Positions 30,959 to 56,680 of a stretch of 59,912 bases of DNA are shown one piece after another. A model generated the notes under the pieces. It worked only from the letters and a program-made list of their open reading frames with translations. It searched no databases and was not told the origin of the DNA. A program made the position numbers and the translations under genes. Position 1 is the stretch's first letter. Each line of letters begins with the position of its first letter. Source of the DNA: Myxococcaceae bacterium JPH2 (GTDB lineage Bacteria; Myxococcota; Myxococcia; Myxococcales; Myxococcaceae); the NCBI GenBank assembly GCA_016458225.1, contig JAEMGR010000008.1, forward strand, positions 1 to 59,912, in the 5' to 3' direction.

Positions 30959-31016
30959 AACACCGCCTCCTGGGCCCGTCAGCTCTCTGCTCGCGTGTTC
31001 AGCGCGCGCCTGCGCT

Positions 31017-31955: not shown

Positions 31956-34900
31956 ATGCGCCGTTCGCTCCTCGTCTGCCTCGTGCTCCTGGCCTCGGTG
32001 GCCGCCGCCCAGGAAAAAAAAGCGCCTCGCGACGCAGACCTCGGCAAGAAGTCCACCACCAACATCGACAAGTCCCTCGCTGGCGACATCACGCGCAAGA
32101 AGGACGACACCGAAGCGGCTCCCCAGCTTCAGTACGATCAGTTCCGGCTGGGCGTGGAGTTTCAGGTCGCGTCCAAGCGCCGTGAGCAGATCGAGTCGCT
32201 GAAGAAGATCATCTCCCTGTCCGCGGATCAGAAAGAGGCCCCCAGCCTCCTGTTCCGCCTGGGCGAGCTGTACTGGGAGGAGTCGAAGTTCTACTTCTTC
32301 GAGGCCAACCGCAAAGACGACGACCTCATCGGCGCGATGAACCGCAACGACGCCGCGGGTCAGCAGCGGGCCAAGGCGGAGAAGGCCGAGCTCCAGGCGC
32401 GCCAGAAGGAGTACGGCAAGCACGCCGTCGAGCAGTACACGAAGATCGTCCAGGAGTACCCGAAGTTCGAGCGCACGGACGAGGTGCTCTTCTTCCTCGG
32501 CCAGTACCTCATGGAGGACGGCCAGGACCGCAAGGCGCTGGTGGCCTTCAAGCGCCTCATCGAGAAGTGGCCCCAGTCCAAGTACATCCCGGACGCGTAC
32601 TTCGCCTTCGGCGAGTACTACTTCAACAACTCCAAGGGGAAGCGCCCGGAGCTGGAGAAGGCGCTCACCGCCTACAAGAAGGCGGCGGAGTTCCCGGAGA
32701 GCCAAGTCTACGCCTTCGCGCTCTACAAGCAGGGTTGGTGCTACTTCAACCTCGCGGACTACGCGGCGGCCAAGGACAAGTACAAGACGGTCGTCCTGTT
32801 CGGCGAGCTGGCGGGTGCCAACGCGGTGGAGAAGGACGCGGGCAAGAAGGGCAGCAAGAACTCGCTCGTGCGCGAGGCCCGCAGCGACTACGTCCGCGCG
32901 TTCGCTCGCGAGGGTGACGTGACGCAGGCGCGCGAGGACTTCAGCAAGGTCGCGACGAATCCCGAAGACCGCTTCGCCATGATGAAGACGCTGGCGAACC
33001 TCTACTACGGGGACGGCAAGGACCGCGAAGCCGCCATCACGTTCAACGCCCTCATCAAGGAGAAGCCGCTGTCGCCCGAGGCGCCTGGCTTCCAGGGGAA
33101 GATCGTCGACTGCATCCTGCGCATGGGCAACAAGGAGCGCACCGTGGCCCAGGTGCGCCGGCTCGTGAAGATCATGAAGGACGTCGAGTCCTCGGGCGTC
33201 ATCAAGGACGACAAGGACAAGAAGGCGCTCGCCGAGGCGAAGGAGATGTCCGAGCGCACGCTCTCGAACCTCGCCGTCACGTGGCACAACGAGGGCAAGA
33301 AGACGCGCAACGAGGAGACGTTCAAGTTCGCCGACGCGGTGTACAGCGACTACCTCACGCTCTTCCCCGAGAACCCCAAGGCCTACGACCTGCGCTTCTT
33401 CTGGGCGGAGTTGCTCAACGACAACCTCCAGAACTACGAGAAGGCCGCCGCCAACTACACGCTCGTCGTCCTGCAGGACGCCAAGGTGCTGGAGGCCAAG
33501 GACGAGAAGGGCAAGCCCAAGCCGGGCAAGCCGGGCAAGTGGCTGCCCAACGCGTCCTACAACGCGGTGCTCGCCTACGACGAGGTCGTGAAGGCGGCCG
33601 AGGCGCGCGGTGAAGGCAAGAGCGAGGCGGCGGGCTCGGACATCACGAAGAAGATCGCCATCCCCACGCTGAAGAAGTCGCTGCTGGACGCGTGCGAGCG
33701 CTACCTCAAGTACGTGCCCAAGGGCGACAAGCGGGTGGAGATCGCCTTCAAGGCGGCGAACATCTACTACCGCCACAACCACTTCGACGAGGCGGTGCTG
33801 CGCTTCAGCGAGATCGCGCTCGGCTACCCGGACTACAAGTTCGAGAACGGGGAGCGCGCCGCGGAGATCGCCGCCAACCTCATCCTCGACTCGTACAACC
33901 TGCTCCAGGACTTCGCGAAGGTGAACGAGTGGGCGCGGCGCTTCTACGCCAACGACAAGCTCGCCACGGGCAAGTTCCGCGATGACCTGGCCAAGCTCAT
34001 CGAGCAGTCGTCGTTCAAGCTCGTCAGCCAGTTGGAGGAGAAGAAGGAGTTCTCCAAGGCGGCCGAGGCGTACCTGAACTTCGTGCACGACTTCCCGCAG
34101 ACGGAGATCGCCGACCTGGCGCTCTACAATGCGTCTGTCGACTACTACAAGGCGAAGAGCCTGGATAAGGCCATCGAGGTGCGCAAGCGCCTGTTCGCCG
34201 AGTATCCGCGCTCGAAGTACGTGCCGGACTCCATCTACGCGAACGCCGAGGCACTGGAGGCCATCGGCGACTTCGAGGACGCCGCGGGCACCTTCGAACT
34301 CTATGTGCGCGGCTACGAGCGCAGCCTGAACGAGAAGGGCGGCGGTGTCGTCGTGGCCGCCAAGGGCCGTGGCAAGCACGCCGCTCGCGGTGGCAAGCGA
34401 GGCGCGGCGCCCGTGCCCTCCGAGTCTGGCAAGCCCGCCGTGGTGCAGAAGTGGGACGAGACCAAGGCGCAGGTGGCGCTGTTCAACGCGGCGACGTACC
34501 GCGAGGGACTGGGCCAGCTCAAGGCCGCGCTCAAGAACCGCGAGCACTACCTGGAGCTGTGGCCCAAGTCGAAGGACTACGAGCAGGTGCTCCTGTCCAT
34601 CATCGACCTGTACACGAAGCAGGGCGCGTACTCGAAGTCGCTGAAGATGCTCGAGGACTACGAGCGCGACAACGCGCGCTCGGCCAGCAAGATGCTGATG
34701 GCCGAGGGGAAGATCGTCGACATCTTCGAGAACAAGATGCACAAGCCGCGCGACACCGCGCGCATGTACAAGCGCATCTCCGACTACTACGACCAGCTGC
34801 CGAAGCGCGTGCAGACGTCGCTGGAGAAGCCGGCCCTGGCCGCCGCCGCGCAGGCCAACCTGCTGGCCATCGAGCCGGACTGGAACGAGTACAAGCGCCT

Positions 34901-35570
34901 GAAGCTCTACTGGGGGGCGCCGCCCTCGCCGGATCGCTTCAAGGCGTCCGTGGTGGACAAGAGCCGCGCGCTGGAAGTGGTGCAGAAGAAGTATGTGCAG
35001 ACGGTGGCCATGGGTGCGCCCGAGCCCGCCATCTGCGCGCTGCAGCGCATTGGCCTGGCGTACGACCACATGGCGGACCGGGTCATCAACGCGCCCATGC
35101 CGCGCGGTCTGGATGACGAGGGACAGCAGGCGCTGCGCGACGAGTTCGCCAACCAGGCCCAGCCGCTGAAGGACAAGGCGACGGAGGCCTTCGCGGGCGC
35201 GGTCGCCAAGAGCCGCGAGCTGGCGGTCTACAACGACTGCGCGGCCCAGAGCCTCAAGCTGCTGCGCACGACCTACGCGCCGGATCGCTATCCGGAGATG
35301 CCGGAGGAGAAGGCCGCGCTGAAGAACCGCGAGCTCATCATCGGAGGCGATCTGCTGGTCGCGGTGCAGGACGTGCCGCCGCCCGCGCCCGCCGCCGCCG
35401 CCGAGAAGCAGGCCAAGAGCGAGGAGCTGCGCGAGGACCTCTCCGCGCTCACCAACCAGCTGCGTCAGCAGACCGAGTCGCAGGTCGGTGCGAAGCCGGC
35501 GGCGGGTCCGCAGGACGGCAACGCGACCAAGAAGCCGGCGGATGATCAGGAGCCGGAGGACTTCCTCTAA
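31956..35570 (+). CDS. gltD: Adventurous gliding motility protein GltD (AgmU), TPR protein
   Basis: 1204 residues. Signal peptide MRRSLLVCLVLLASVAAAQ, so periplasmic. Many TPR-like helical repeats follow (for example LFRLGELYWEESKFYFFEA, VLFFLGQYLMEDGQDRKALVAFKRL, IYYRHNHFDEAVLRFSEIAL) up to about residue 1100, then a Pro/Ala/Gln tail ending PEDFL. In M. xanthus GltD/AgmU is a periplasmic part of the Glt complex spanning the envelope at focal adhesions. Just after the signal peptide it has TTNIDKSLAGDIT, a motif echoed in GltF. The ATG at 31956 follows AGGAAGA; the very long upstream extension is spurious. Its stop overlaps the gltE start as TAATG. Confidence 0.92.
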   Translation: MRRSLLVCLVLLASVAAAQEKKAPRDADLGKKSTTNIDKSLAGDITRKKDDTEAAPQLQYDQFRLGVEFQVASKRREQIESLKKIISLSADQKEAPSLLFRLGELYWEESKFYFFEANRKDDDLIGAMNRNDAAGQQRAKAEKAELQARQKEYGKHAVEQYTKIVQEYPKFERTDEVLFFLGQYLMEDGQDRKALVAFKRLIEKWPQSKYIPDAYFAFGEYYFNNSKGKRPELEKALTAYKKAAEFPESQVYAFALYKQGWCYFNLADYAAAKDKYKTVVLFGELAGANAVEKDAGKKGSKNSLVREARSDYVRAFAREGDVTQAREDFSKVATNPEDRFAMMKTLANLYYGDGKDREAAITFNALIKEKPLSPEAPGFQGKIVDCILRMGNKERTVAQVRRLVKIMKDVESSGVIKDDKDKKALAEAKEMSERTLSNLAVTWHNEGKKTRNEETFKFADAVYSDYLTLFPENPKAYDLRFFWAELLNDNLQNYEKAAANYTLVVLQDAKVLEAKDEKGKPKPGKPGKWLPNASYNAVLAYDEVVKAAEARGEGKSEAAGSDITKKIAIPTLKKSLLDACERYLKYVPKGDKRVEIAFKAANIYYRHNHFDEAVLRFSEIALGYPDYKFENGERAAEIAANLILDSYNLLQDFAKVNEWARRFYANDKLATGKFRDDLAKLIEQSSFKLVSQLEEKKEFSKAAEAYLNFVHDFPQTEIADLALYNASVDYYKAKSLDKAIEVRKRLFAEYPRSKYVPDSIYANAEALEAIGDFEDAAGTFELYVRGYERSLNEKGGGVVVAAKGRGKHAARGGKRGAAPVPSESGKPAVVQKWDETKAQVALFNAATYREGLGQLKAALKNREHYLELWPKSKDYEQVLLSIIDLYTKQGAYSKSLKMLEDYERDNARSASKMLMAEGKIVDIFENKMHKPRDTARMYKRISDYYDQLPKRVQTSLEKPALAAAAQANLLAIEPDWNEYKRLKLYWGAPPSPDRFKASVVDKSRALEVVQKKYVQTVAMGAPEPAICALQRIGLAYDHMADRVINAPMPRGLDDEGQQALRDEFANQAQPLKDKATEAFAGAVAKSRELAVYNDCAAQSLKLLRTTYAPDRYPEMPEEKAALKNRELIIGGDLLVAVQDVPPPAPAAAAEKQAKSEELREDLSALTNQLRQQTESQVGAKPAAGPQDGNATKKPADDQEPEDFL

Positions 35571-37057
35571 TGAATCGTACCCATCTCTTGCGTCCCGTCC
35601 TCCTGCTGGCGGCCACGGCGCTCGTGGCCTCGGGCTGCTCCACGACGAAGGCGGCGGCTCCCACGGGCCCCACCAAGCCCACCGTGGTCACGAAGACTGG
35701 CCCCGAGGAGGCGCCCACCATCTCCAACCGCGCCAAGCTCCTCTTCGAGGACGCGGTGAAGTCCTTCGACGCGCAGAAGAAGGCCAAGGCGTTCGACTAC
35801 CCGTCGCTGGAGCGCAAGTTCAAGGCGGCCCTGGAGGCGGACGCCAACCTCGCCGAGGCCGAGTACAACCTGGGCGTGGTGGCCGAGCGGCAGGGCAAGA
35901 ACGACGAGGCCCGCGCGCACTACAAGGCCGCGCTCACCACGAAGCCGTCGCTGCGGCAGGCCTCCGAGAACCTGGCCATCCTGAGCCAGAACTCCGGTGA
36001 CGTGGCCGGCGCCGTCGCGCTCTACCAGGACGTGCTCCAGCGCTATCCGGATGACGCCAGCTCGCGCGCCCGGCTCGCGGAGATCTACCGGCAGACGGGT
36101 GACCACGACAAAGCCATGGCGCTGGCGCGCGCTGCCCTCATGCGCGACCCGCAGTCCACCACCGCGCTGAAGGTGATGATCCGCAGCTTCCTGGACCGCA
36201 AGCAGCTCGCGATGGCCAAGCTGGTCGCGCTGCGTGGCGTAAAGATCGACGCGGCGGATCCCGAGATGCAGCACGCCGTGGGCCTCATCCTCCAGAAGGA
36301 AGGGGACAAGGAGGGCGCGCAGCTCCAGTTCAAGCGCGCCCTGGAGTCTCGCGCGGACTACGTGCCGTCGCACGTCATGCTCGCGCAGCTCGCCCTGGAG
36401 TCCGAGGACTACCCGGGCGCCGAGGAGCACCTGCGGCGCGTCCTGCAGGCGGATGGCAAGAACGCCGCCGCGCACCTCGACCTGGGCATCGCGCTCAAGG
36501 GGCAGGGCCAGTTCGACAAGGCCATGCAGGAGTACGACGAGGCGGAGAAGCTGGACCCGAACCTCGCGGCCATCTACCTCAACCGCGCCGTCATCCTGCA
36601 CCGCGTGAAGGACGCGCCGGAGCGCGCCGTGGAGCTGTACAAGAAGTACGTGGCCATGGCCGGCGGTGACGTGGCGCTCTCGGGCGAGGCGCCCGTGTTC
36701 GCGCTGCTGCGCGAGGCGGAGAGCATCGTCCAGGCCAAGCGCGAGGCGAAGGCCTCCGAGGATCAGGCCAAGCAGATGGAGGCGCTCCAGGCGCAGCAGC
36801 AGTCCGCGCTCAAGGCCGAGGAGGCCAAGCAGAAGCCGGCCCCGGCGCCCACGCCGGGTGGGGCCGCGACGCCCGTCAACTCCACGGGCCCGTCCACCCA
36901 GGCCACTCCGGCCACGGGCACGACGGGCACTCCCGCGCCCGCGGCTGCCACGCCCGCGACCTCGCCGGCCCCCAGCCCCGCGAAGTCGAAGGCCGCGCCG
37001 GAGAAGAAGAATGCAGGAGCGGCGGATTCCGAGGAGCCGTCCGACGACCTGCTGTGA
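35570..37057 (+). CDS. gltE: Gliding motility TPR lipoprotein GltE (AglT)
   Basis: 495 residues. Lipoprotein signal MNRTHLLRPVLLLAATALVASGC (Cys23), so anchored to the outer or inner membrane facing the periplasm. Residues about 60-370 are TPR repeats (AEYNLGVVAERQGKNDEARAHYKAAL, AAHLDLGIALKGQGQFDKAMQEY), followed by a coiled segment (KREAKASEDQAKQMEALQAQ) and a Pro/Ala/Thr-rich tail ending SDDLL. In M. xanthus GltE/AglT is required for adventurous motility and is part of the Glt complex. The start overlaps the gltD stop by one base. Next gene gltF follows after 127 bases. Confidence 0.92.
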   Translation: MNRTHLLRPVLLLAATALVASGCSTTKAAAPTGPTKPTVVTKTGPEEAPTISNRAKLLFEDAVKSFDAQKKAKAFDYPSLERKFKAALEADANLAEAEYNLGVVAERQGKNDEARAHYKAALTTKPSLRQASENLAILSQNSGDVAGAVALYQDVLQRYPDDASSRARLAEIYRQTGDHDKAMALARAALMRDPQSTTALKVMIRSFLDRKQLAMAKLVALRGVKIDAADPEMQHAVGLILQKEGDKEGAQLQFKRALESRADYVPSHVMLAQLALESEDYPGAEEHLRRVLQADGKNAAAHLDLGIALKGQGQFDKAMQEYDEAEKLDPNLAAIYLNRAVILHRVKDAPERAVELYKKYVAMAGGDVALSGEAPVFALLREAESIVQAKREAKASEDQAKQMEALQAQQQSALKAEEAKQKPAPAPTPGGAATPVNSTGPSTQATPATGTTGTPAPAAATPATSPAPSPAKSKAAPEKKNAGAADSEEPSDDLL

Positions 37058-37184
37058 AAACGGAAGCGCCCGCGCGTACCTTCGCTGTGGCGTGGGCGCG
37101 CGGGATGATGCGAACCTTGTGCGTCCCCGCGATCCAGGGGACGCGACGTGCATGGTGGCCCCGCGGGGCCTTCGTGGAGGCGGT

Positions 37185-37454
37185 ATGCGGAACCTGCTGA
37201 TGCTGTGTGTGGCGCTGTCGGTGTTCCCGGCGTTCGCCGCGGAAGATGGTGGCGGCAAGGGGCAGGGCGGCGAGGGCGCGGCGCGCACGCAGAAGACGAC
37301 GAACATCGACTTCGAGGACGACACCATCGAGGGTGACCTCACGAAGCCGGATGGCGAATACGTCGAGGCGCGCAAGACCGTGAAGCACTCGAACCTCATC
37401 CGCGTGCGCGAGGACTTCGAGGACAAGGTGATGCAGTCCGTGGGCGAGCTGTAG
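37185..37454 (+). CDS. gltF: Small gliding motility protein GltF
   Basis: 89 residues. Short signal peptide MRNLLMLCVALSVFPAFAAED, so periplasmic. The mature part is only about 70 residues: a Gly-rich linker, then KTTNIDFEDDTIEGDLTKPD and a charged helix ending DKVMQSVGEL. Assignment rests on position between gltE and gltG, the M. xanthus gltF slot, and on size. The TTNID...GDLT segment resembles the N-terminus of mature GltD. The ATG at 37185 has GGAGG four bases upstream; the longer in-frame reading upstream overlaps gltE and is not credible. Confidence 0.8.
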   Translation: MRNLLMLCVALSVFPAFAAEDGGGKGQGGEGAARTQKTTNIDFEDDTIEGDLTKPDGEYVEARKTVKHSNLIRVREDFEDKVMQSVGEL

Positions 37455-37524
37455 TCGCACTCCTGGGCGGGAACCTCCCGTCGAATCCGTTGTCGAAGAG
37501 CGCAAAAGCCACTCGGGAGCTCTC

Positions 37525-39453
37525 ATGGCCGTTCCGCTGACACTCAAGGTCTTCAAGGGCGACACGCTGGTTGCCTCGAAGGACTACGAGCGCGACATCA
37601 TCAAGATTGGTCGGCTGTCCTCCGCGCACCTGTGCCTGGACGACGACAAGGTCAGTCGCATCCACTCCGTCATCGAGGTCTCCACCGACGGCACCATGTC
37701 CATCATCGACATGGGCAGCGTCGAGGGCACCTACGTCAACGGCAAGCGCGTCACCAAGGGCCAGGTCGCCTTTGGAGACGAGATTCGCGTGGGTGGCACC
37801 ACCATCCGTCTGGAGAATCCGGCCGCGGTCGCGGCGGTGAACCTGGCGGCCGCGGTCGCTACCGCCGAGGCGCCCACGGACAAGAACCCCGTGGTGGCCG
37901 CCGCTCCGGCGCCTGTTGCCGCTCCGGTGGTGGCTCCCAAGGTCGCTCCGGCGCCGCCCCCGGCCGCGATGGATACCTCGTTCGCGACCACGCAGAAGCA
38001 CGCGGTCACCACCGCGGCGCCCGACGACGATGATGCCCCCGCCGCGCCCGTGGATGCCGCGCCGCGCGTGCGCACCGTGCGCCGCTCCAAGTCCAGTGGC
38101 CCCATGGGCGTGTCGCTCCGGCTGCTGTGGGGCGATCAGCGCGTGGGCGAGTTCTTCATCGCGCCAACCAAGACGAAGAAGCTGTTCACGGTGGGCTCGG
38201 CCAAGGGCGTGGACTTCGTCATGGGTGACGCGAAGCTGGGTGCTCCCAGCTTCGTCGCGCTGCAGGCGGACGGGTCGAGCTTCTCCGTGCGCTTCACGGG
38301 GAAGATGAAGGGCGAGCTCACCCGGAAGGGCGAGGCGCGCGACCTCAAGGCCGTCATCGAGTCCGGCAAAGTGTCGCACGAGGGCGAGGCGTACTCGCTC
38401 ACGCTGGAGGCGGACGACTTCTACTGGGTGGACCTGGGCGGCGTGACGCTCGAGGTCCAGTTCCAGCCGGTGCCCAAGCCGGTGGTGGTCCCGCTCGGCG
38501 AGAACCTCGACTACACGGCGCTCAACATCTTCCTGGTGATGTTCTTCATCGCCACCGCGTTCGTCATCCACTCGATGAACCGCACGGATCGCGGGGACGA
38601 GTACTCGGACGAGCTCAACGGCAACGATGCGCGCATCGCGAAGCTGATCATCAAGCCGCCCGAGACGCAGAAGAACAAGTTCCTCGAGAAGCTCAATCAG
38701 CAGAAGGAGAAGAAGTCCGGGGAGATGGCCGCCAAGAACCGCGGCGACGAAGGCCAGATGGGCAAGAAGGACGCCGCCAAGACGGGCAACAAGACCGCGG
38801 TCAAGGGTGATCCGAACAAGAAGGATCAGGCCCGCGCGCTCACCGCGAAGATCTTCGGCGGTGGCAAGGGCGGCATCTCCACCATCTTCGGCAGCAACGG
38901 CCTGGGCGGCGAGCTCAAGAGCGCCATGGGCAACATGTTTGGCGCGCGCGCGGGTGACTCGGCTGGCTTCAACGGCATGGGCCTGCGTGGCAACGGCGGC
39001 GGTGGTGGCGGCACCGGTGACAGCATCGGCATCGGTGGTGTCGGCACCAAGGGCCGTGGTGGCGGCACCAGCGCGTATGGCACCGGCGTGGGTGTGCTCG
39101 GCGGCAAGCAGAGCGTGGACGTGGGCATCACCTCGTCCGACCCGGAGGTCATGGGCTCTCTGGACAAGGAACTCATCCGCCAGGTCATCCAGCGCAACCG
39201 CGGCCAGATTCGCTTCTGCTACGAGAGCTTGCTGAACCGCTTCCCGAAGCTGGGCGGCAAGGTGGCCATCAAGTTCGTCATCAGTGCCAACGGCAGCGTG
39301 GCCTCGTCCAATGTCTCGCAGTCCACAGCTGGAAACGCGGAACTGGAGATGTGCGTGGCTGGCCGTGTGCGCACGTGGAAGTTCCCCGAGCCCAAGGGGG
39401 GCGGCTCGGTCATCGTCACGTATCCGTTCAACTTCAAGCAGGCCGGCGACTAG
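37525..39453 (+). CDS. gltG: Gliding motility protein GltG: FHA domain, one TM helix, TonB-like C-terminus
   Basis: 642 residues, inner-membrane protein. An N-terminal FHA domain (about 20-95) keeps the phosphopeptide-binding residues: GRLSSAHL, VSRIHS, and the Asn of SVEGTYVNGK. Ala/Pro linkers and a second beta-rich region (about 190-315) follow, then one transmembrane helix (about 331-350, LNIFLVMFFIATAFVIH), a Lys/Gly-rich periplasmic stretch, and an AgmX/TonB-like C-terminal domain (about 550-642, IRFCYESLLNRFPKLGGKV, WKFPEPKGGGSVIVTYPF). So phosphothreonine sensing in the cytosol is linked to reaching through the periplasm. The ATG at 37525 follows GGGAG. 70 bases after gltF. Confidence 0.93.
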   Translation: MAVPLTLKVFKGDTLVASKDYERDIIKIGRLSSAHLCLDDDKVSRIHSVIEVSTDGTMSIIDMGSVEGTYVNGKRVTKGQVAFGDEIRVGGTTIRLENPAAVAAVNLAAAVATAEAPTDKNPVVAAAPAPVAAPVVAPKVAPAPPPAAMDTSFATTQKHAVTTAAPDDDDAPAAPVDAAPRVRTVRRSKSSGPMGVSLRLLWGDQRVGEFFIAPTKTKKLFTVGSAKGVDFVMGDAKLGAPSFVALQADGSSFSVRFTGKMKGELTRKGEARDLKAVIESGKVSHEGEAYSLTLEADDFYWVDLGGVTLEVQFQPVPKPVVVPLGENLDYTALNIFLVMFFIATAFVIHSMNRTDRGDEYSDELNGNDARIAKLIIKPPETQKNKFLEKLNQQKEKKSGEMAAKNRGDEGQMGKKDAAKTGNKTAVKGDPNKKDQARALTAKIFGGGKGGISTIFGSNGLGGELKSAMGNMFGARAGDSAGFNGMGLRGNGGGGGGTGDSIGIGGVGTKGRGGGTSAYGTGVGVLGGKQSVDVGITSSDPEVMGSLDKELIRQVIQRNRGQIRFCYESLLNRFPKLGGKVAIKFVISANGSVASSNVSQSTAGNAELEMCVAGRVRTWKFPEPKGGGSVIVTYPFNFKQAGD

Positions 39454-39475
39454 CGCCGACCTGGTCTCTCGCTCG

Positions 39476-39513
39476 GCGAGCGGGCTCTGAGTGGGCCCGC
39501 TCGCGTGGTCTTT
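39476..39513 (+). terminator. Intercistronic hairpin between gltG and gltH
   Basis: A perfect ten-base-pair stem (GCGAGCGGGC at 39476-39485, GCCCGCTCGC at 39495-39504) with a nine-base loop, followed by GTGGTCTTT. The T-run is short, so it is more likely a partial attenuator or a 3'-end stabiliser than a full terminator. gltH starts 46 bases further on. Confidence 0.4.
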
Positions 39514-39558
39514 CCGACCCCCGCCCCCGCGGGTGTCGCGCAACCCCTCAGGCACCGA

Positions 39559-40191
39559 ATGAAAGTCCTCGCCCCATTTGCCCTGTGCGCCACGTTCCTC
39601 CTCCCCTTGGTCGCGGGTGCCCAGGAAACCTCCTCCAGCGTCGCCACCGCGGACCGCCCCGCCGTCACGTTCGATGAAATCGAGCGGGGCGTTTATTTCT
39701 CGGTGCTGGGGGGCCCCAGCTTCATGGTGAACCCGCCTGCGTCCCAGGGGCCTCGTCCCTTCTCCACCGGGCAGATGGCGCAGGTGGAGCTGGGGGTGGA
39801 CCTGGGCCAGCGCCTCTCGCTGGGCGTGTTCCTGATGGGCACGGTGAACCGGGCCGGCTCGGACTACGTGGGCAACTCCCAGGGCGCCGCCTCGGGCGAC
39901 TTCTCGACGATCGTCCCGGGCGCGGTGCTGCGGGCCCATCTGGTGGGCTTCGCGGACAGCCAGGAAGTGAAGCGGACGTGGATCTATGCCCGCGCGGGCG
40001 CGGGCTATGCGATGTTTACGCCGAAGAAGCTCCTCCCGGATTCCGACATTCTTGTGTTTGCCGGGCCCGGAGTGGAGTACTACACACGGCTGCGCCACTT
40101 TTCCGTGGGTCTTGAGGTGACGGGGAACTACCTCGTCTCCGCGGGCACTTTCGGGTTCGCTGTGGCGCCGAACATTCGCTACGCGTTCTAG
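39559..40191 (+). CDS. gltH: Outer-membrane beta-barrel gliding protein GltH (CglE)
   Basis: 210 residues. Signal peptide MKVLAPFALCATFLLPLVAGAQ, then alternating amphipathic strands (YFSVLGGPSFMV, MAQVELGVDLGQRLSLGVFLMG, WIYARAGAGYAMF, FSVGLEVTGNYLV) ending in NIRYAF with a C-terminal Phe as in barrels recognised by Bam. In M. xanthus GltH sits in the outer membrane of the Glt complex; I believe this locus was also named cglE, with moderate certainty. The ATG at 39559 has only a weak ribosome-binding site. The next gene begins 12 bases later. Confidence 0.85.
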   Translation: MKVLAPFALCATFLLPLVAGAQETSSSVATADRPAVTFDEIERGVYFSVLGGPSFMVNPPASQGPRPFSTGQMAQVELGVDLGQRLSLGVFLMGTVNRAGSDYVGNSQGAASGDFSTIVPGAVLRAHLVGFADSQEVKRTWIYARAGAGYAMFTPKKLLPDSDILVFAGPGVEYYTRLRHFSVGLEVTGNYLVSAGTFGFAVAPNIRYAF

Positions 40192-40203
40192 CGGGAGATT
40201 CAC

Positions 40204-42024
40204 GTGGCTCAGGAGAATGGAAGCGGTGGGCCGCGCCCAGGTGGGCGCGGTCGGGATGGGGGTGCGCCGGGCCAGGGGCCGCGCCGCGATGGTCCTGGCG
40301 GATTCGGTGGCCGGGGTGGACCGGGCGGCCGAGGCGAAGGACGTGGCCGGGGTGAAGGCCGAGGGCGCGACCGCGACGCGGGGCCGGTGGGGCCTGGGCA
40401 GCGAGTCATCGCCGAGCTGAGCACCCTGGAGAAGGCCCTGTCCAAGTCGGACTTCTCCGCGGAGAAGGGGCCACTCGAGGCGATTGTCCGGTCGCTGAAG
40501 CCCATGCGGCTCAAGTCGCTGGAGGACCTGGACCTCAACACCCGAGGCCGCCTCATCACCACGATGCTGCGCGTGCAGCGTCAGGTGAAGCCGGCGCTGC
40601 CGGAGAGCGTACCGGCCGAGGCCGCTGCTCCCGCGGAAGCTCCCGCACCGGAGGCCGAGGCCACCGAGGCCGCCGCCCCGGCTGAGGGCGCTGCGCCCGC
40701 CGAGGCCGCTGCCGCCGAGCCCTCGCCGGCCGAGCAGGCGCGCACGAAGTTCAATGCCTGGACGGACGTCATGTTCCTGGTCGGTCGCGTGTGGCGCGCC
40801 GCCGGTGACGCGGACCGGGCCGAGACGGCCTTCACGGCCAGTGGTCGCCAGCCGACCGCCGAGGCCGAGGAGCCGGCGCCGCGCACCGAGGAGCGTCGCG
40901 AGCGTCCCGCCGAGCGGGGCGAGCGTCGTGACCGCGGTGAGCGTCGCGAGCGCCCGGAGCGCGGTCCCCGCCCGGAGCGGAGTGCCGCGGGCGAGCGTCG
41001 CGAACGCCCTGAGCGGGGTCCCCGCCCGGAGCGTCCGGAGCGCGCGCCGATGCCCGAACTCACGGGCGAGTGGCCGGAGCAGGCCAAGCAGCTCGAGGGC
41101 ATGGGGCGCACGCGTGACGCGGCCCGTCTCCACGAGCGCAACAACTCCTACGCCGAGGCCATCCGCCTGTTCGAGGCGGGCGGCGACCTCAAGAGCGCCC
41201 TGCGCAACGCGCTGGCCGGTCAGGACAACGACGCGGCCCGCCGCTTGGTGGGAACGCTCCCGGCGGAGCAGATCGCCGCGACGCTGGAGAAGGCGGGCGC
41301 CTACGAGCTCCTCATGGAGCACTACGTCGCCAAGGGTGACTTCGAGAACGTCGCCCGGCTGTACGAGCGCGCGCGCCAGTTCGACCAGGCGGCGCTCGCG
41401 TACGAGCGCGCCAACAAGCTGACCCTGGCGCGCAAGGCGTACGAGCGGGCTCGGGACATGGCGAGCGCCAACCGCATCCGCGGCCTCGAGGTGAAGAACC
41501 TCGTGGAGCGCGGCGACCGCCTGGGCGCGGCCACCCTCCTGGTGGCGGTGGGCCAGCGGCGCGAGGCCGTCGAGGTGCTCGGCACCCTGCCGCCGCCCAA
41601 GGCCTTCCACTTCATGCAGCGCCTCAAGCTGGATGAGGAGGCCAAGACGCTGGCGCAGCGCGAGCTGGCCCGCGCCGAGCAGGAGCAGAAGCCGGCGGGC
41701 CGCGCCCGTTGGCTGGAGCTGCTGGGTGACACCGCCGCCGCGGCGGAGACCTGGGAGCAGGCTGGCCGCAAGGACAAGGCGCTTCCGCTGCACGAGAAGA
41801 TGGGCAACATCGCTCGCGCGGCGCAGCTCGCCGAGGAGCTCCAGCTGCGCGAGAAGGCCCTCGCGCTGTACACCCAGGTGGGCGATGCCGCCGGGGTGGA
41901 GCGCGCGAAGGCGCTGCCCGAGGCTCCGGCCTCCGCGCCTGCCGCCGACAAGTCCGATGCGAGCGACGAGGGCGACGACAGCGCGTCCGCCGCCTCCCCG
42001 TCCGGAGAGCAAGAAAGCCAATAA
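40204..42024 (+). CDS. Unnamed Arg/Gly-rich, TPR-like protein inside the glt cluster
   Basis: 606 residues, no signal peptide, so probably cytosolic. The first 65 residues are almost wholly Gly, Arg, Pro and Asp (RGG-like: GGRGGPGGRGEGRGRGEGRG). An Ala/Glu-rich linker follows, then an Arg/Glu/Pro repeat region at about 225-280 (units like ERRERPERGPRPE). Residues about 290-575 form helical TPR-like repeats (YERARQFDQAALAYERANKL, LARKAYERARDMASANRI). It occupies the position between gltH and gltI, where M. xanthus also has unnamed genes. RGG tracts often bind RNA or phase-separate. Start GTG at 40204, with GGGAG upstream. A weak five-base-pair hairpin with a T-run follows the stop (42028-42046). 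Confidence 0.8.
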   Translation: MAQENGSGGPRPGGRGRDGGAPGQGPRRDGPGGFGGRGGPGGRGEGRGRGEGRGRDRDAGPVGPGQRVIAELSTLEKALSKSDFSAEKGPLEAIVRSLKPMRLKSLEDLDLNTRGRLITTMLRVQRQVKPALPESVPAEAAAPAEAPAPEAEATEAAAPAEGAAPAEAAAAEPSPAEQARTKFNAWTDVMFLVGRVWRAAGDADRAETAFTASGRQPTAEAEEPAPRTEERRERPAERGERRDRGERRERPERGPRPERSAAGERRERPERGPRPERPERAPMPELTGEWPEQAKQLEGMGRTRDAARLHERNNSYAEAIRLFEAGGDLKSALRNALAGQDNDAARRLVGTLPAEQIAATLEKAGAYELLMEHYVAKGDFENVARLYERARQFDQAALAYERANKLTLARKAYERARDMASANRIRGLEVKNLVERGDRLGAATLLVAVGQRREAVEVLGTLPPPKAFHFMQRLKLDEEAKTLAQRELARAEQEQKPAGRARWLELLGDTAAAAETWEQAGRKDKALPLHEKMGNIARAAQLAEELQLREKALALYTQVGDAAGVERAKALPEAPASAPAADKSDASDEGDDSASAASPSGEQESQ

Positions 42025-42134
42025 TTTCCGTCGGTTGACGGGTTTTGCATGATTGCCCGGGGGCGCCCGCGGCCGGTAGAGTCCGGTCGCTGGCGCCCTC
42101 GTTTCATTCCTCCTATCCCTGGCCCGCGACTCTC

Positions 42135-48100: not shown

Positions 48101-51100
48101 CGCGCTGTTGCGCCGCATCGCGGAGACCTACGCCGGGCCGCTGGAGAACCCAGAGATGGCCTTCCTGGCCGCCACGCGCGCGCTGCGCGAGCTGCCGGAC
48201 GACCTGCGCTCGCTGGAGCTGTGCGTCTCGCTGGTGGACAAGGCCGAGGCGCCCGAGGAGCTGTGCGCGGTGTTGCTGGAGGTGGCGCCCAAGGCGAGCG
48301 ACAGCGCTCGCGCGGAGCTGTACCGCGCCCTCGGTCGCATGCAGGTGGACCTGGGCGAGCCCGCCGAGGCGCTCGCGTCGTGGAAGAAGGTCCTGGAGCT
48401 GAAGCCCACGGATCAGGAAGCGCTGGATGGCACGGCGCGGCTGGTCGCCTCGCAGGGCAAGCCGACGGAGCTGCTGGAGGTCCTGCGCCGACAGCTCGCG
48501 CTGTCGGAGGAGCCTGCGCGTCGCGCGGCGGTGCTGCTTCAGATCGGCACCGTGCAGGACGAGCAGCTCAAGGACTCGCTGGCCGCACTGGCCACGTTCC
48601 GGCGCTTGCTGGAGCTGAAGCCGGACGACACCGCGGCGCTCGAGAAGATGGAGGCGCTCTGCCAGAAGCAGGAGCGCTGGCCGGAGCTGGCGGACGTGCT
48701 GGCGCGGCGCATCGCGCAGCTTGGGCCCGAGGAGGGATTGGAGCTGAAGTTCCGGCTCGCCTCGGTGCGCGAGACCAAGCTGATGGACAAGTCGGGCGCA
48801 CTGGCGCTCTACGGCGAGGTCCTCGCGGTGCAGCCGAACCATGCGGGCGCGGTGGGCCGCATGGAGGCGCTGGTGAATCGCGAGCCGCAGAACCTGCTCG
48901 CGGTGGAGACGCTGCTGCGTGCCTTCCGCGCGAGCGGTGACGTGGCGCGTCTGGCGCAGGTCATCGAGGTCCGCGTCGGCGTGTCGCGTGACGCGCTGGA
49001 GCGCAAGCAACTGCTGGGCGAGCTGGCCACGTTGCGCGAGGCGCAGGGCGAGTCGGAGCTGGCCTTCCTGGCCCTCTTCCGCGGCTTCAAGGAGGACCCG
49101 AACGACGCGGAGGTTCGCCGGCGACTCGAAGACGCCACGGATGCCTCGGGCAGCTACGACGAACTCGTGGTGGCCTACGAAGAGGCCCTCCCGCGCGTGG
49201 CCGAAGCGGCCGATGCCGCCGACGTCTGCCTCAAGCTGGGCCAGATGTTGGAGACGAAGCTGCGGGATCCCGACCGCGCCGTGTCGTACTACGAGCGGGC
49301 GCGCACCCTGCACGCGTCGGTGCAGGACAAGGCGCTGGTCGCGTTGGATCGCCTCTACGTGGAGCTGGAGGCGTGGCCGGAGCTGGCGGGCGTGCTGGAG
49401 GCGCTCGCGGCGGGCGGCGCCAACGTGGCGGACCGCGTGGGCTTCCTCTTCCGGCTCGGTCAGCTCTACCACGAGCGGCTGGACAGCCCGGACCGCGCGG
49501 CGGGCGCGTACGAGTCCATCCTCGCGTTGGAGCCGGGGCACCTCGCCTCGGCGCGCCTGCTCGAAGGCATCTACGAGGCGGCCAATGCCTCGGAGAAGCT
49601 CTACGGCATCCTGAAGTTGCAGGCGGACAAGGCCACCGGCGCCGAGCGCGACCGGGTGGTGGCCAAGATGGCCCAGGTGTCCGCCGAGGGCCTCGCGGAC
49701 CTGGATCGCTCCATCGAGCTGTACCGCGAGCTGCTCGCGAAGAACGCGCGCAACGAGCAGGCGTTCTCCGCGCTGGAGTCGCTGTACGAGCGCGCCAATC
49801 GCCCCGAGGACCTTCGTGCGTTGTTGGAGGGCCGGCTCGCGCTGACATTGGATCCTCGCGAGGTGGTGCGGCTCAACGAGCGGCTCGGGCGCGTGGTGTA
49901 CCGCCTGCTCAAGCAGCCCGAGGCGGCGGTGCCGTTCTTCAAGGCCGCGCTGGACCGCGACGCGCGCCACCGCGGCGTGCTGGATACGCTGCGCGAGCTG
50001 TACGACGAGACCGGGCAGCGCGAGGAGTTGGTGGGAGTGCTCCGCCGCCTCATCCCGCTGCAGGAGAGCAGCGAGGGCGTCAAGGCGCTGCGCCTGCGAC
50101 TGGCCGAGGTGCTCGCGGGGATGGGCCGCCGCGAGGAGGCGCTGGACGCGGCTCGGCGCGCGCTGGAGGTGGAGCCGCACGCGGTCGCGGACCTGGAGCG
50201 GGTCAACGCGCTCTTCGCCTCGCTGCGGGCCTGGAACGACGCGGTGCGCGCACTGGAGCTGAAGGTCCAGGTGCACCTCGGCGCGGAGGAGCGTGAGCAA
50301 GCGGTCGCCACGTACTTCGCCGTCGCCGACCTGTGGGAGGGCCCTGGCGCCAAGCCGGAGCTGTCCGCGGGCGCGCTGGAGCGCGTGCTGGAGCTCGACC
50401 CCGCCAATCGCACCGCATACGAGCGGGCGTGCACGCTGTATCGCTCGCACAATGACTGGCGCGCGTATGCCACGGTCATGGACCGGTACATGCCTCACCT
50501 CGTCACGGACGAGGAGAAGCTGGCCGCGTTGCGCGAGCTGGCGCGCGTGCAGGAGGAGCGGCTCGGTCAGAAGGACGTCGCGTTCCTCGCCTTGTGCCGC
50601 GCGCTGCAGCTCGATGCCTCGGACGACTCGCTCCGCGAGGAAGTGGAGCGGCTCGCCGACGAGACGGGGAGCCACGAGGAATTGGCGGCGGTCTACGACC
50701 AGGTGGCGGACGACCTGCCTCGCGGCCCGCTCGCCGAGCGCATCTACGCCACGTTGGCGCGCGTGCACGACACGCGGCTGGATGATCCGCAGGCTGCGGA
50801 GGCCGCGTTCCGGAAGATCCTCGAGTTCGACCCGACGAACGCCACCGCGTTGGACGGTCTGGCGGCGGTGTTCCAGCGCCGGGGACGGGATCGCGAGTAC
50901 GTGGTGGCGCTCGAGCAGAAGCTCGAAGCGGCCGGCTCCATCGAGGCGCGCAAGCCCATCCTGCGGGAGATCGCCCGCGTCTGGGACGAGAAGCTGGAGG
51001 ACCCGACGGAGTCCGCCAGTGCCCTCTTGCGCGCCCTGGACCTGGAGCCGGACCTGGAGACGCTCGGGGTCCTCACCGCGCTGTATCGGCGGGGCCGGGC

Positions 51101-54100
51101 GTACGCGGACGTGGCGTCGTCGCTGCTTCGCGCGCGGGACCTCGCGGACTCGAACGAGGCCCGGGCACGCATCCAGGTCGAGGTCGCCGGTGTCTATGAG
51201 CGCGACCTGAAGGATGACGAGGCCGCGGTGGCTGCCTATCGGCAGGCCCTCGAGTTCGAGCCCGACAACCGCGAGTCACTGGAGTCGCTGGAGCGCCTGC
51301 ACACGCGCTTGGATCAGCCCGCGGACCTGCTCGCCATCTACGAGCGGATGCTGGAGCTGAGCCAGGACTGGCGCGAGAAGGTCCGCGTCCTGTTCCGCAG
51401 CGCGACCATCTGGGAGGACACGTACCAGAACCCGGCCAACGCGGACGCGTGCGTGGAGGGCGTGCTCTCCATCGACCCGACGAACGTGCAGGCCATCAAG
51501 GCCCTCATCCGCCTGCGCCGCGCTCAGGCGCGCTGGGAGGACCTCATCGCCGCCTTCGAGCGACAGCTCGCCCTGGCCACGAGCCCGCAGGAGCAGGCGG
51601 AGCTCTACGTCGACATCGGCAACGTGCAGTACCAGCAGCTCAAGGCGCTGAACAAGGCCGTGAACAGCTACCACGCGGCGCTCGCGGCGGACCCCACGAG
51701 CCGACCCGCGCTGCACGCGCTGGGCACGCTGTACGAGCGCAGCGGCAACTGGCCCTTCGCGCTGGAGATGCTGCAGAAGGAGGCGGAGCTGGCCGGCCAG
51801 TCTCCCGAGGCGGTGGAACTCTGGTACCGCCTGGGGAAGATCAACGAGGACATGCTGATGGACTCCGGCAGCGCCCGGAACGCCTATCAGCAGGCCCTCG
51901 CCGTGGACGCGAGCCACCTGCCGAGCATCCGCGCCCTCAAGGGCATCCAGGAGCAGGAGAAGGACTGGGGCGGCTACGAGCAGACGCTCTTGCAGGAGGC
52001 GCGTCAGACCGAGGACCCCGAGGCGAAGGGACGCGCGCTGCTCGACGTCGCGCGCTACCACGCCGAGACGCGCGAGGATCGCGATACGGCCACGGGCTAC
52101 TGGGAGGAGACGCTCAAGCACATCCCGGACAGCCTGGAGGCGGCGAGGCCCCTGGCGGACATCTACATCGCTCGCGAGGACTGGGCCGCGGGCGAGCGGA
52201 TGCTCGACATCGTCACGCGCAAGATGGCCGAGAAGGCCATGGCCGAGAAGGACGGCGCGCTCGCCGCGGAGCTGTGCCGCCAGCTCTACCGCCTGGGCTA
52301 CGTGGCGGAGAAGCTCGGCCGTCGCGACAAGGCCCTCAAGGTCTACGAGAAGGCGTACGAGCTGGACGCCACGTACCTCCCGGCGCTCGAGGGCTACGGC
52401 AACCTGCTCGTCCAGGCCCGTCGCTTCGAGGACGCGCTCAAGGTCTTCCAGACCATCCTCATCCACCACCGCGAGGAGCTGACCGACCTGGAAGTGGTGG
52501 AGGTGTACTGGCAGCTCGGTGACGTGCACGCGGCGCTGGGACAGGCCGACCGAGCGCAGAACCACTTCGAGAAGGCGCTCGCGCTGGATCCGGGGCACGA
52601 GCCCACGCTGCGTGCGCTCGTGGCGCTGATGGACAAGGCGAGCAAGTTCGAGAAGTCCGCCGAGCTGCGCCAGCAACTCGTCAACGTGGTGGAGGGAGAC
52701 GCGAAGATCCGCGTGTTCCTCGAGCTGGGTCGCATCGCGCGGGATCAGCTCAATGATCCGTACATGGCCATCGACGCCTTCAGTGGCGCGCTCAAGGTCG
52801 ACCCCACGTCTCCCGAAGTCATGGACGCGCTCTACGTGCTCCTGCGGGAGACGCGACAGGGGCAGAAGGCGGCCGATGTCCTCACGCGGATGCTCGCGCT
52901 GCCGGCGCTGTCGTCCGAGCCGCACAAGGCCAAGCGCGTGTGGTTCGCGCTGGGCGAGATTCGTCGCGACGAGCTGAAGGACGTCGAGGGCGCGACCCAG
53001 GCCTTCAACGCCGCGCTCGACCTGGACCATCGCTTCGTGGAGGCCTTCAGCGCGCTGGAGGCGCTGCTGGGCGGCGCGCGCCAGTGGAAGGTCCTCGAGG
53101 AGAACTACACGCGGATGCTGGGCCGTCTGCCCAAGACGCCGGACACCCATGCCGCGCGCATGACGTTGTGGCGGGCGCTGGGCGATCTGTATCTCCAGGT
53201 GCTCAAGAGCCCGGAGGGGGCGGTCGCGGCCTACGGCGTCGCGGCCAAGGGCCTGCCGGACGATGCGAGTGTGCAGGAGACCTTCGCCGAGATCGCCGGC
53301 GCCATGCCTGGCAAGGAGGATGAGGCCATCGCCGCGCTGCGCCGCGCGCTGCCGCACACCCAGAACGCGCGCAAGGTGGTGGGACACCTCGTGCGCCTGT
53401 CCGCCCTGCGCAAGGACTACGACGCGGCCTGGCTCGCGGCACAGGCCGTGACGGGGCTGCTCGGTGAGGCGGGGGAGGATGAGCAGGAGATCCTCACCAA
53501 GCTCGGTCCCTACGCGAAGAAGAAGGAGCTGGCGCAGCGTCCGTTGACGGATCGCCTGTGGCAGACGCACCTGTTCCACCCGAAGGTGCGCGGGCCGTTG
53601 TCCGAGCTGCTGGGCCTGCTCTTCGAGAAGGCGGGGCACCAGTACGCGGTGCCCGTCACGCAGTACCAGCTCGTGCCCAAGAAGCACCGCATCGACGTGG
53701 CGACGGCGCAGGAGTACCACGTCAACCACTACCGCTACGTGGCACGCCTGTTCGGCATGGAGGCGGTGGAGCTGTACTCGGCCTTCCTCGTGGCGACGCG
53801 CGAGCGCCTCGCCAAGCGCTCCAACGATCCGGCGCCCGAGCCGCTCATCAACGTCGAGCTGCTCCAGACGCATCCGGCGTCGGTGCGTGTGGGTGGCAAG
53901 TACTTCGCGGAGCAGGGACAGAAAGAGGTCTACTACCTGCTGGGTCGCACCCTGGCGCTGGCGCGTCCGGAGCTGTCGTTCAGCCAGCGCGTGGCCCCCG
54001 AGCGCCTCGAGGCCGTGGTCCAGGCCGCGCTCACGCTGGTCGTGGGCAACGTGCGGCTGACGGTGGACCCGCGCGCGGTGGACGCGGAGCGTCGCTTGCT

Positions 54101-54410
54101 CGAGAAGAGCCTCAGCGAGCCGGACCGCGCGGCGCTCGCGAAGGTGGCTCGGGCCTACCTGCCCACGGCGACGCCCCAGGACGTGAAGAACTGGCTGGAG
54201 GGCGCCGAGCTTACGGCGTCACGCGCTGGACTCTTCGCGGCAGGCGAGCTGGAGCCGGTGCGCCGCATGGTGCAGGGTGAGACGGGCTCGGCATTCCGCG
54301 TGCCCTCGCGCACCAAGCTGCGAGAGCTGCTGGTGTTCGCGACCTCCGAGGATCTGCACGACTTGCGAGTGGCGGTGGGGACGCACGTGGAGGTGCAGGT
54401 GCGACGGTAG
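42135..54410 (+). CDS. gltI: Giant TPR protein GltI (AgmK)
   Basis: 4091 residues, one of the largest proteins a myxobacterium makes. It starts [20 protein letters not shown] with no signal peptide or transmembrane segment, suggesting a cytosolic location. Nearly the whole length is degenerate TPR-type units, often with the signature (D/E)-x-AGALxAFEKAV or LALYxxVLxxxPxxxxALxxLExL and pairs such as [19 protein letters not shown]. The last roughly 600 residues change in character ([38 protein letters not shown]) and may form a distinct C-terminal domain. In M. xanthus AgmK is needed for adventurous motility. The ATG at 42135 is used; the reading before it lacks coding character. No frameshift seen over 12.3 kb. 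Confidence 0.92.
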
Positions 54411-54472
54411 CGCCAGACCCGGACTCTGGGTTCATGCGTTGAGTAGCATTCGGGCAATCAAGGCGCGCGACC

Positions 54473-54501
54473 TTGATCTCCCCGGTGGGCACTTCTACGA
54501 T
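54473..54501 (+). promoter_or_regulatory. Possible internal promoter for gltJ
   Basis: TTGATC (54473-54478), a 17-base spacer, TACGAT (54496-54501), four matches to each hexamer. It lies in the 134-base gap between gltI and gltJ and would give a leader of about 37 bases. It could let gltJ be expressed apart from the 12.3-kb gltI transcript. Confidence 0.35.
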
Positions 54502-54544
54502 TCCGACGGGATTTCTTCCGTCATTTCTGAGGGTTGCGGGAAAG

Positions 54545-56680
54545 ATGCGTTTCGTCTGCGACAGCTGCCGCGCGCAGTACATGATCAGCGACGACAAAGT
54601 TGGCTCCAAGGGAGTCAAGGTTCGTTGCAAGAAGTGCGGTCACACCATTCTGGTGAGGCCCGCGGGAGCACCGTCGGTGAAGGAGGGCTCGCCGGAGATT
54701 GCACCGGTCGAGACCACGCCTCCCGCTGCCGGTACGCCACGCGGGGCCGAGCCCGCCGGAACGGGGTTGCCCGCTTCGCTGGGCACGCCTCCGGAAGGTG
54801 GCCTCTTCACGGACGTGGAGGAGGACGAGATCGGCGCCGTGTTCGATCAAGTGCTGAGCTCCGGCTCGCACAAGATTCCGGCGGGCGAGGCCGTGGGCGC
54901 GACGAAGGATGCCGCGTCCGAGACGGTGCGCCGTTTGGCCGAGGCCGAGGAGACCGAGTCCGCGAAGGAAGACGCCAAGCCCAACGCCGCGGCCCACGAG
55001 TGGTACGTGGCCATCGAGGAGAAGCAGGTCGGGCCTTGGTCGGTGGAGAAGGTGAAGGACGCCTGGGAGCGCGGAGAGGTCGGGCCGGACAGCCTGTGCT
55101 GGCGCTCGGGATTCAGTGATTGGATTCCGCTGTCCGAGACCGCCGAGCTGGCCTCGGTCCTCGCGCCGCGTCCGTCCAAGCCTGTCATTGTCGCGCCCGC
55201 GCCGGTGTCCTCGTCGTCGCCCTCCGTGGTGGCTGGCCCGGTCGAGTCAGCCTTCAGCGCGGGCAGCTCCAAATCGGGTCGCACGGACACGGGTGTGGGA
55301 GTGCCGTTGGCGCCGGCCGAGGAGTCCGTGGGCTGGAAGCCGTCGGCGGCCAGCGTGCTGGCGTCTCTGGTGAAGGAGGAGAACGAGGCGCTGGCGAAGC
55401 CGCCGCCGCGTCCTGCTCCGTCGCTGGAGAAGGAGCCGGTGTCCCAGTCTCGGCTGCTGGACGTGCCGATTCCGCCTCCCGAGCCGTTGTCGTCGCCAGG
55501 TGCGCCCATGCCGATGATGGGTGCGCCCATGGCTCCGGCGCCCATGGCCTATCCGCCGCAGCACGCGGCGCCTGCGTATGCCCAGGCCGCGCCTGCCTAT
55601 GCGCAGCCGGCGTACGCGCAGCCCGCGCCCGCCTATCCGCCCCCGGGTTATCCCGTGGGCTATCCGCCTCCGCAGGCCGCGCCTCCCGCGGGCAAGAGCA
55701 AGATGCCGCTCATCGCGGGCGGCATCGGCGGGGTGCTCATCGTGGGCGTGTTGGCGGTGCTGGCGTTCTCGCGCGGTGGCAACGCGCGCGGTGAAGAGAC
55801 GCCCGTGCCGTCGGCGTCTCCCTCGCAGGTGGCGGCCGCGACGCCTCGTCCGAGCGCGGAGATGCCGCCGATGCCTGCGGCTCCGGTGGGGACGGTGCAG
55901 ACGCCGCCCCCGGCGACGGCTCAGGCCACCGCGACTCCGCCTCCAGGCACGACCGCGCCCGCGGGTGGGGCGCCAGTCGCCGCTGCCGGTACGCCGCCGG
56001 TCGCGGCGGCTGTGACGCCTCCGGCGGGCGGGACGAGCGCTCCGGTCGCGGCGGCCACGCCGCCTGTTCCAACTGCGACTGCGGCCGTGACACCTCCGCC
56101 GGTCGCTGCGCCTCCGACTCCGGTGGCTGCAGTGGCGCCGGCCAATCCAGGCACGCCGGTGGCGCGTGTGGATCGCACGCCGACGACCCGTCGCACGGGC
56201 ACGTCGAGCCGCGCTGGGGGGCACGAAGAAGAGACGCACAGCAGTTCGCAGCACACGGCTTCGACTTCATCCAATGCGGGCGGCGGGGATGATGAGTTTG
56301 ATGATCTCTTCGGCACGAAGAAGGCGCAGCCGGTGCCGAAGCCGGGAGGCAAGACTCCGACGACGTACATTCCGCCCGAGCCTGGCGGCTCGATGCCAGA
56401 CACGCTTCAGCAGTCCGACATCATGCAGGTCGTGTTGTCGAACAAGCCTGCCATCGTGAAGTGTGTGAGTGAGCAGAAGAAGAAGGACCCGGCGCTGAGT
56501 GGCAAGCTGGTGATGCGTTGGACGGTGCAGACGAGCGGTAAGACAACCGCTGTGTCATGTCGCACGGATGAATTCCGTTCGAGCTACATGGCGAGCTGCA
56601 TTTCGGGCCTCATCAAGGGCTGGACGTTCCCGCGGCACAAGCGCCAGGGCGACCCCATCGATTTCCCGTTCACGTTCTAA
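54545..56680 (+). CDS. gltJ: Gliding motility switch protein GltJ (AgmX): zinc ribbon, GYF, TM, TonB domain
   Basis: 711 residues. An N-terminal zinc ribbon (Cys5, Cys8, Cys28, Cys31) and a GYF-2 domain at about 152-205 (WYVAIEEKQVGPWSVEKV, DSLCWRSGFSDWIPL) lie in the cytosol. A linker with Ala/Tyr/Pro repeats (PAYAQ units, about 335-385) precedes one transmembrane helix at about 388-408 (LIAGGIGGVLIVGVLAVLAF). A Pro/Ala/Thr-rich periplasmic stretch follows, then an AgmX/TonB-like C-terminal domain (about 620-711, ending PIDFPFTF). In M. xanthus the zinc ribbon and GYF domain read the polarity GTPase MglA to assemble and disassemble adhesions. The ATG at 54545 starts exactly at the zinc ribbon. 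Last gene of the cluster. Confidence 0.94.
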   Translation: MRFVCDSCRAQYMISDDKVGSKGVKVRCKKCGHTILVRPAGAPSVKEGSPEIAPVETTPPAAGTPRGAEPAGTGLPASLGTPPEGGLFTDVEEDEIGAVFDQVLSSGSHKIPAGEAVGATKDAASETVRRLAEAEETESAKEDAKPNAAAHEWYVAIEEKQVGPWSVEKVKDAWERGEVGPDSLCWRSGFSDWIPLSETAELASVLAPRPSKPVIVAPAPVSSSSPSVVAGPVESAFSAGSSKSGRTDTGVGVPLAPAEESVGWKPSAASVLASLVKEENEALAKPPPRPAPSLEKEPVSQSRLLDVPIPPPEPLSSPGAPMPMMGAPMAPAPMAYPPQHAAPAYAQAAPAYAQPAYAQPAPAYPPPGYPVGYPPPQAAPPAGKSKMPLIAGGIGGVLIVGVLAVLAFSRGGNARGEETPVPSASPSQVAAATPRPSAEMPPMPAAPVGTVQTPPPATAQATATPPPGTTAPAGGAPVAAAGTPPVAAAVTPPAGGTSAPVAAATPPVPTATAAVTPPPVAAPPTPVAAVAPANPGTPVARVDRTPTTRRTGTSSRAGGHEEETHSSSQHTASTSSNAGGGDDEFDDLFGTKKAQPVPKPGGKTPTTYIPPEPGGSMPDTLQQSDIMQVVLSNKPAIVKCVSEQKKKDPALSGKLVMRWTVQTSGKTTAVSCRTDEFRSSYMASCISGLIKGWTFPRHKRQGDPIDFPFTF

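Follow-up and report, generated by a model that had tools for sequence, protein, structure and literature searches.

Gene content of the G1 cluster

The window analysed here is a stretch of 59,912 nucleotides from Myxococcaceae bacterium JPH2, and lies on contig C8 of a 9.0-Mb genome in 144 contigs. On its forward strand, from the ATG of gltD at 31956 to the stop codon of gltJ at 56680, lies the G1 cluster of the Agl–Glt adventurous gliding machine. The cluster opens with gltD (agmU; 31956–35570), encoding an exported TPR protein of 1204 aa with TPR/YbgF-type repeats, and gltE (aglT; 35570–37057), encoding a TPR lipoprotein of 495 aa. These are followed by gltF (cglF; 37185–37454; 89 aa), gltG (pglI; 37525–39453; 642 aa), whose product carries an FHA domain (PF00498) and a TonB-like tail (PF03544), and gltH (cglE; 39559–40191), which encodes a predicted outer-membrane barrel of 210 aa. 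An extra gene of 606 codons with a GTG start (40204–42024) separates gltH from gltI (agmK; 42135–54410), which encodes a giant TPR protein of 4091 aa, and the cluster closes with gltJ (agmX; 54545–56680; 711 aa), containing a zinc ribbon (PF13717), a GYF domain (PF14237) and a tail. Two start codons were corrected and are most likely the ATGs at 39559 (gltH) and 54545 (gltJ). Directly upstream of gltD, two genes occupy the reverse strand (29996–31673), one of them with a P-loop ATPase-like sequence as judged by eye, and a 12-pair hairpin with a weak T-run is found between gltG and gltH (39476–39504).

Five products pass the curated cut-offs of NCBIfam equivalog models: GltE (NF033758, gliding_GltE; 769 bits, cut-off 225), GltF (NF033764, gliding_CglF; 134 bits, cut-off 90), GltG (NF033760, gliding_GltG; 1033, cut-off 650), GltH (NF033755, gliding_CglE; 177 bits, cut-off 70) and GltJ (NF033761, gliding_GltJ; 897, cut-off 450). 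CglF and CglE are taken here to be alternative names of GltF and GltH. No gliding model of the NCBIfam scan matched GltD or GltI, GltI being recognized by TPR models only, and both were assigned because their position, length and identity to Myxococcus xanthus agree. GltD is 83% identical to its counterpart in M. xanthus AM003 over residues 1–1205, the second-best location in the AM003 genome reaching 30%, and the first 1200 residues of GltI are 82% identical; the M. xanthus proteins measure 1191 aa (GltD) and 4132 aa (GltI) in Table 1 of Luciano et al. (2011; PMC3169522). GltJ shares 67% identity with that of AM003. Among named relatives, Citreicoccus inhibens is the closest, with 92% identity in GltJ and 95.2% in the DNA of the extra gene. 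The G1 cluster of M. xanthus (gltD–gltJ, MXAN_4870–4862; Luciano et al. 2011, PMC3169522) has the same order of genes, with proteins of like size and domain layout, and in both organisms gltC and the MotA-type genes lie at other loci. A sequence-only reading of this DNA had proposed a colinear gltD–gltJ series belonging to the Agl–Glt system; its gene order, strand and ends are right, and the model scores and alignments bear out the identity.

Other motility loci and a paralogous cluster

The same reading had gltC and the motor genes missing from this stretch, which agrees with the rest of the genome. Separate loci are expected for the G2 (gltC, gltA, gltB and gltK) and M1 (aglRQS) genes, and the GltC equivalog (1063 bits) is encoded on contig C13, whereas none of the eight matches to MotA/TolQ-type proteins genome-wide falls on C8. 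Ahead of gltC on C13 are two frames, one of 276 aa and one of 244 aa, whose length and order alone match those of gltB (275 aa) and gltA (256 aa). Candidate places for M1 include an ExbB–ExbD–ExbD triad on C5 (L066) and C15, which carries an ExbB and an ExbD frame (L085).

Because the genome also holds a paralogous cluster (C10:430–447 kb; L065), with two barrel proteins and GltC-, GltD-, GltE-, GltG- and GltH-like proteins, the genes in the window could in principle belong to a paralogous TPR/TonB-type system, for example one for Nfs sporulation, rather than to G1. We presume that the C10 cluster is of this Nfs type. The paralogues, however, score far below the cut-offs of the GltC, GltE and GltG models: the GltE model gives 769 bits in the window vs 117 on C10, and the GltG model 1033 vs 347 bits. 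These scores reject an Nfs-type identity for the window cluster, and GltD, with its 83% match in M. xanthus AM003 far above the runner-up place there, points the same way, so that we regard this alternative as having next to no chance of being correct. The gliding_CglE model does not discriminate: a C10 barrel (L065:4836–5435) reaches 212 bits and outscores the GltH of the window, and therefore this NCBI name cannot separate the two. At 1e-10, seven C10 proteins scanned with the GltJ model gave no match, and the C10 stretch contains no frame of gltI size. A profile of the extra gene has its sole match in this genome in the window, with none in the C10 cluster.

For the Myxococcaceae, the cluster itself is ordinary, adding one more species to a known system. 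The point of interest within it is the extra gene.

A conserved gene at the position of agmV

The sequence-only reading had mentioned an unnamed extra gene between gltH and gltI. The gene is present, and it is neither unnamed nor incidental: by position, it appears to correspond to M. xanthus agmV (MXAN_4864/65). This equation is made because of the arrangement in M. xanthus AM003 (not DK1622), in which a 623-aa frame lies between gltH and gltI (L022:3251–5122). According to Luciano et al. (2011; PMC3169522), agmV was among the G1 genes hit by transposons in a gliding screen; MXAN_4864 and MXAN_4865 were then termed likely pseudogenes, “probably not actual genes,” and dropped. Two genes were annotated and discarded in DK1622, whereas a single intact frame is found here. 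A second study reports AgmV (MXAN_4865) among the proteins that mass spectrometry identified in outer-membrane vesicles (PMC4158809). Passages of PMC4488436 do not name MXAN_4864, nor do those of PMC12288465 name agmV. Among the open-access papers searched, only PMC3169522 and PMC4158809 proved relevant to agmV or MXAN_4864/4865.

A scan of named genomes recovered 30 loci, from Citreicoccus, Corallococcus, Myxococcus (including M. xanthus AM003), Pyxidicoccus, Hyalangium, metagenome-assembled genomes of Archangium and further myxobacteria, as well as a record labelled Comamonas. In the last of these (L020; BNCN01000006.1, “Comamonas sp. KCTC 72670”), myxobacterial gltG and gltH accompany the extra gene on a contig of 603 kb; the record is apparently misnamed. 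The order gltG–gltH–extra gene–gltI holds at all loci reaching these genes: gltH is directly upstream in 27/27 loci that extend that far, and the start of gltI is found about 17–349 nt downstream in 29/29 (extrapolated in the six most distant loci). The gap between gltH and the extra gene is 12 nt in the window, 12–18 nt in 23 of the 27 loci and about 95–144 nt in the other four. The GTG start is preceded by GGGAG.

Long chance open frames are plentiful in this GC-rich DNA, and the view of Luciano et al. (2011; PMC3169522) would make the frame a pseudogene or non-gene, in keeping with the two genes annotated at this place in DK1622. A split frame is also seen in one single-contig, Corallococcus-group genome (G086; L062), where the gene is divided within its R/E-rich linker into frames covering residues 1–255 and 244–606; this perhaps resembles the split annotated in DK1622. 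Against a chance frame, the reading frame is open in 30 of 30 loci, M. xanthus AM003 among them. The gene is complete at both ends in 27 of these (L023, L028 and L032 run off the contig), and in nine the stop lies four codons short of the forced-alignment end, which suggests that the C-terminus is a little shorter there. For nine close pairs, the pN/pS of the extra gene is 0.06–0.18, and it exceeds 1 in the two other forward frames and in two of the three reverse frames; the third reverse frame, which shares the third codon position, has values of 0.13–0.29 but contains 5–13 stops. In the RG-rich N-terminal tract, synonymous sites vary but the amino-acid sequence is maintained (pN 0.03 and pS 0.56 against L006, for instance). 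Over 11 pairs, pN/pS of the extra gene is below that of gltG in nine, below that of gltH in six and below that of gltI (first 1200 codons) in three, mostly differing little from the gltI value; the comparison with L030, the most distant pair, gives high ratios throughout (0.56–0.70). Constraint on the extra gene is about like that on its neighbors. The chance-frame reading was rejected on the open frames and the low pN/pS, and a pseudogene or non-gene at this place is highly improbable. That the extra gene is a genuine, conserved protein gene is well supported.

Hairpin and promoter-like element upstream of gltI

Directly after the stop codon of the extra gene, a terminator-like hairpin followed by TTTT is found on the forward strand (42027–42042). 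Pairing was counted on 24 sequences including the window (15 distinct), with 7 of 31 lacking the anchor left out. In these sequences, 96.7% of cells are paired, vs 28–52% for slid versions of the hairpin, and two of the six pairs show changes on both sides. In none of 500 shuffles did the share of paired cells, the covariation score or the two-sided cell count come up to the observed value; the two-sided pair count was reached in 102 of 500 and the pair-type count in all of them. The hairpin after the extra gene is conserved.

Further downstream, a promoter-like element, TTGCCC-18-TAGAGT (42053–42082, forward strand), precedes gltI and was recognized by consensus match only. The corresponding pattern (TTGCCC, TTGCTC or TTGATC, 18 nt, then TAGAGT or TACACT), drawn up after viewing the alignment, occurs in 25 of 31 sequences; the six most distant sequences do not have the full pattern, with the TAnAnT box kept in five of them. 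A stricter promoter scan did not list the TTGCCC-18-TAGAGT element. If both elements are real, the extra gene ends the gltD–gltH unit and gltIJ have a separate start, and therefore a transposon insertion in the extra gene need not be polar on gltIJ.

Architecture of the extra protein

In the whole-protein structure model, the extra protein begins with a disordered RG-rich tract (residues 1–61), which is followed by a helical domain (residues 64–125), a disordered A/E/P-rich linker, a second set of helices (residues 175–213) and a disordered R/E-rich linker (residues 220–279). Next comes a confidently modeled alpha-solenoid of 21 helices (residues 290–569), C-terminal to which is an acidic tail; modeled alone, the solenoid has a pLDDT of 93.8. 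The protein has no signal peptide as judged by eye.

Among 21 alignment members, the clathrin-type Pfam model PF00637 matches 19 and the IFT140/IFT172-type model PF24762 matches 16. On the isolated solenoid, PF00637 scores 33.7 bits (cut-off 29.6), over 59 residues only, and on the full protein 29.4. The extra protein has helical-hairpin repeats in common with clathrin and IFT140/IFT172, but these matches span only about 60–110 residues and carry no sign of coat function. Comparison with known structures returned many repeat proteins with middling Z and high rmsd. Such matches indicate a helical-repeat architecture and no particular function, and Z values of this size may mean only a common arrangement of helices. 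Four weak matches came from a profile search against solved structures: one to a designed repeat protein, two to IFT122 and one to IFT144. NCBIfam assigns no family name to the extra protein of the window, and 3 of 19 relatives match collagen-like adhesins, which is taken as a reflection of the glycine-rich tract. Relation to GltI was not detected in a weak test with a single GltI sequence (34 aligned columns, probability 1.8).

Distribution across the Myxococcota

A profile of the solenoid was run against 195 Myxococcota genomes, 96 of them from the family of the window, and matched 113 in all and 89 of the 96 in the family. Among family genomes at least 90% complete (rounded completeness values), the gene is found in 85 of 86. 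In the single exception (G091), the contig begins 10 nt before gltI, which places the gene in an assembly gap; completeness is 78–88% in the six remaining family genomes without a match.

Outside the family, 24 genomes match. Sixteen of these matches score at most 46.1 bits and are taken for generic repeat matches, and eight score 75–152 bits (families f4, f7, f8 and f9). The profile matches none of the 24 genomes of the related family f3 and none of the three of f6, and in one genome of each (G040 and G057), gltD, gltE, gltF, gltG, gltH and gltI are present with a gltH–gltI gap too small for the extra gene. Seven of the eight f4, f7, f8 and f9 genomes (G159 excluded) have no glt gene beside the relative, although one of these seven contigs spans only 4.2 kb; the RG-rich N-terminus is visible in two of the relatives (L080 and L081). 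Because relatives elsewhere stand without detected glt genes, the ancestral role of the extra gene need not be gliding. The distribution suggests that the gene was either taken into the G1 cluster along the lineage leading to the Myxococcaceae or moved out of it in other lineages.

Proposed role of the extra gene

We consider it probable, taking all parts together, that this is the G1 cluster with a genuine gene at the agmV position, that the gene closes the gltD–gltH unit, that its product serves as a cytoplasmic scaffold aiding focal adhesions, and that its linkage is a trait of the Myxococcaceae. The extra gene would be the last of a gltD–E–F–G–H–agmV transcription unit, and gltIJ would have a separate promoter. 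Its product would be a cytoplasmic scaffold in which the solenoid binds partners and the RG-rich tract supplies multivalent contacts, and, in the vicinity of GltI and GltJ, it may contribute to the assembly or tuning of focal-adhesion complexes at their cytoplasmic side. The detection of AgmV in outer-membrane vesicles fits badly with a cytoplasmic protein. Linkage of the gene to the cluster would mark the Myxococcaceae rather than the Myxococcota at large. A more specific proposal, which we put forward tentatively, is that AgmV belongs to the gliding machine as a true subunit that has been overlooked. It would act as a scaffold in the cytoplasm, nucleating focal-adhesion complexes through multivalent contacts of its disordered RG-rich tract and clathrin/IFT-like solenoid with GltI, GltJ or AglZ, and it would have joined the machine when a free-standing gene was recruited in the Myxococcaceae ancestor. 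We know of no clean-deletion phenotype of agmV.

A less probable alternative is that the gene is real and only a passenger, with a housekeeping or RNA-related role, sharing the gltD–gltH transcript in the Myxococcaceae. RG-rich tracts are common in RNA-binding proteins, the relatives in the seven inspected genomes lack a nearby glt gene, and G1 clusters without the extra gene exist. A passenger is harder to reconcile with the tight spacing to gltH in most loci, with the same placement in every locus that could be judged, and with a transcription unit that seems to end after the extra gene; the transposon hit recorded for agmV in the gliding screen (PMC3169522) also speaks against it. Participation of the extra gene in gliding is likely but unproven, its role being inferred.

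Implications for focal-adhesion gliding

The Agl–Glt machine is a leading case of bacterial focal-adhesion gliding, and the glt parts list of 2011 (PMC3169522) was drawn up without the extra gene. If agmV does work as a component, models of the machine miss a conserved cytoplasmic part; if it is a passenger, the cluster exemplifies the capture of a gene by a motility operon. The extra gene, which was dismissed in the model species as probably not a gene, merits a motility test.
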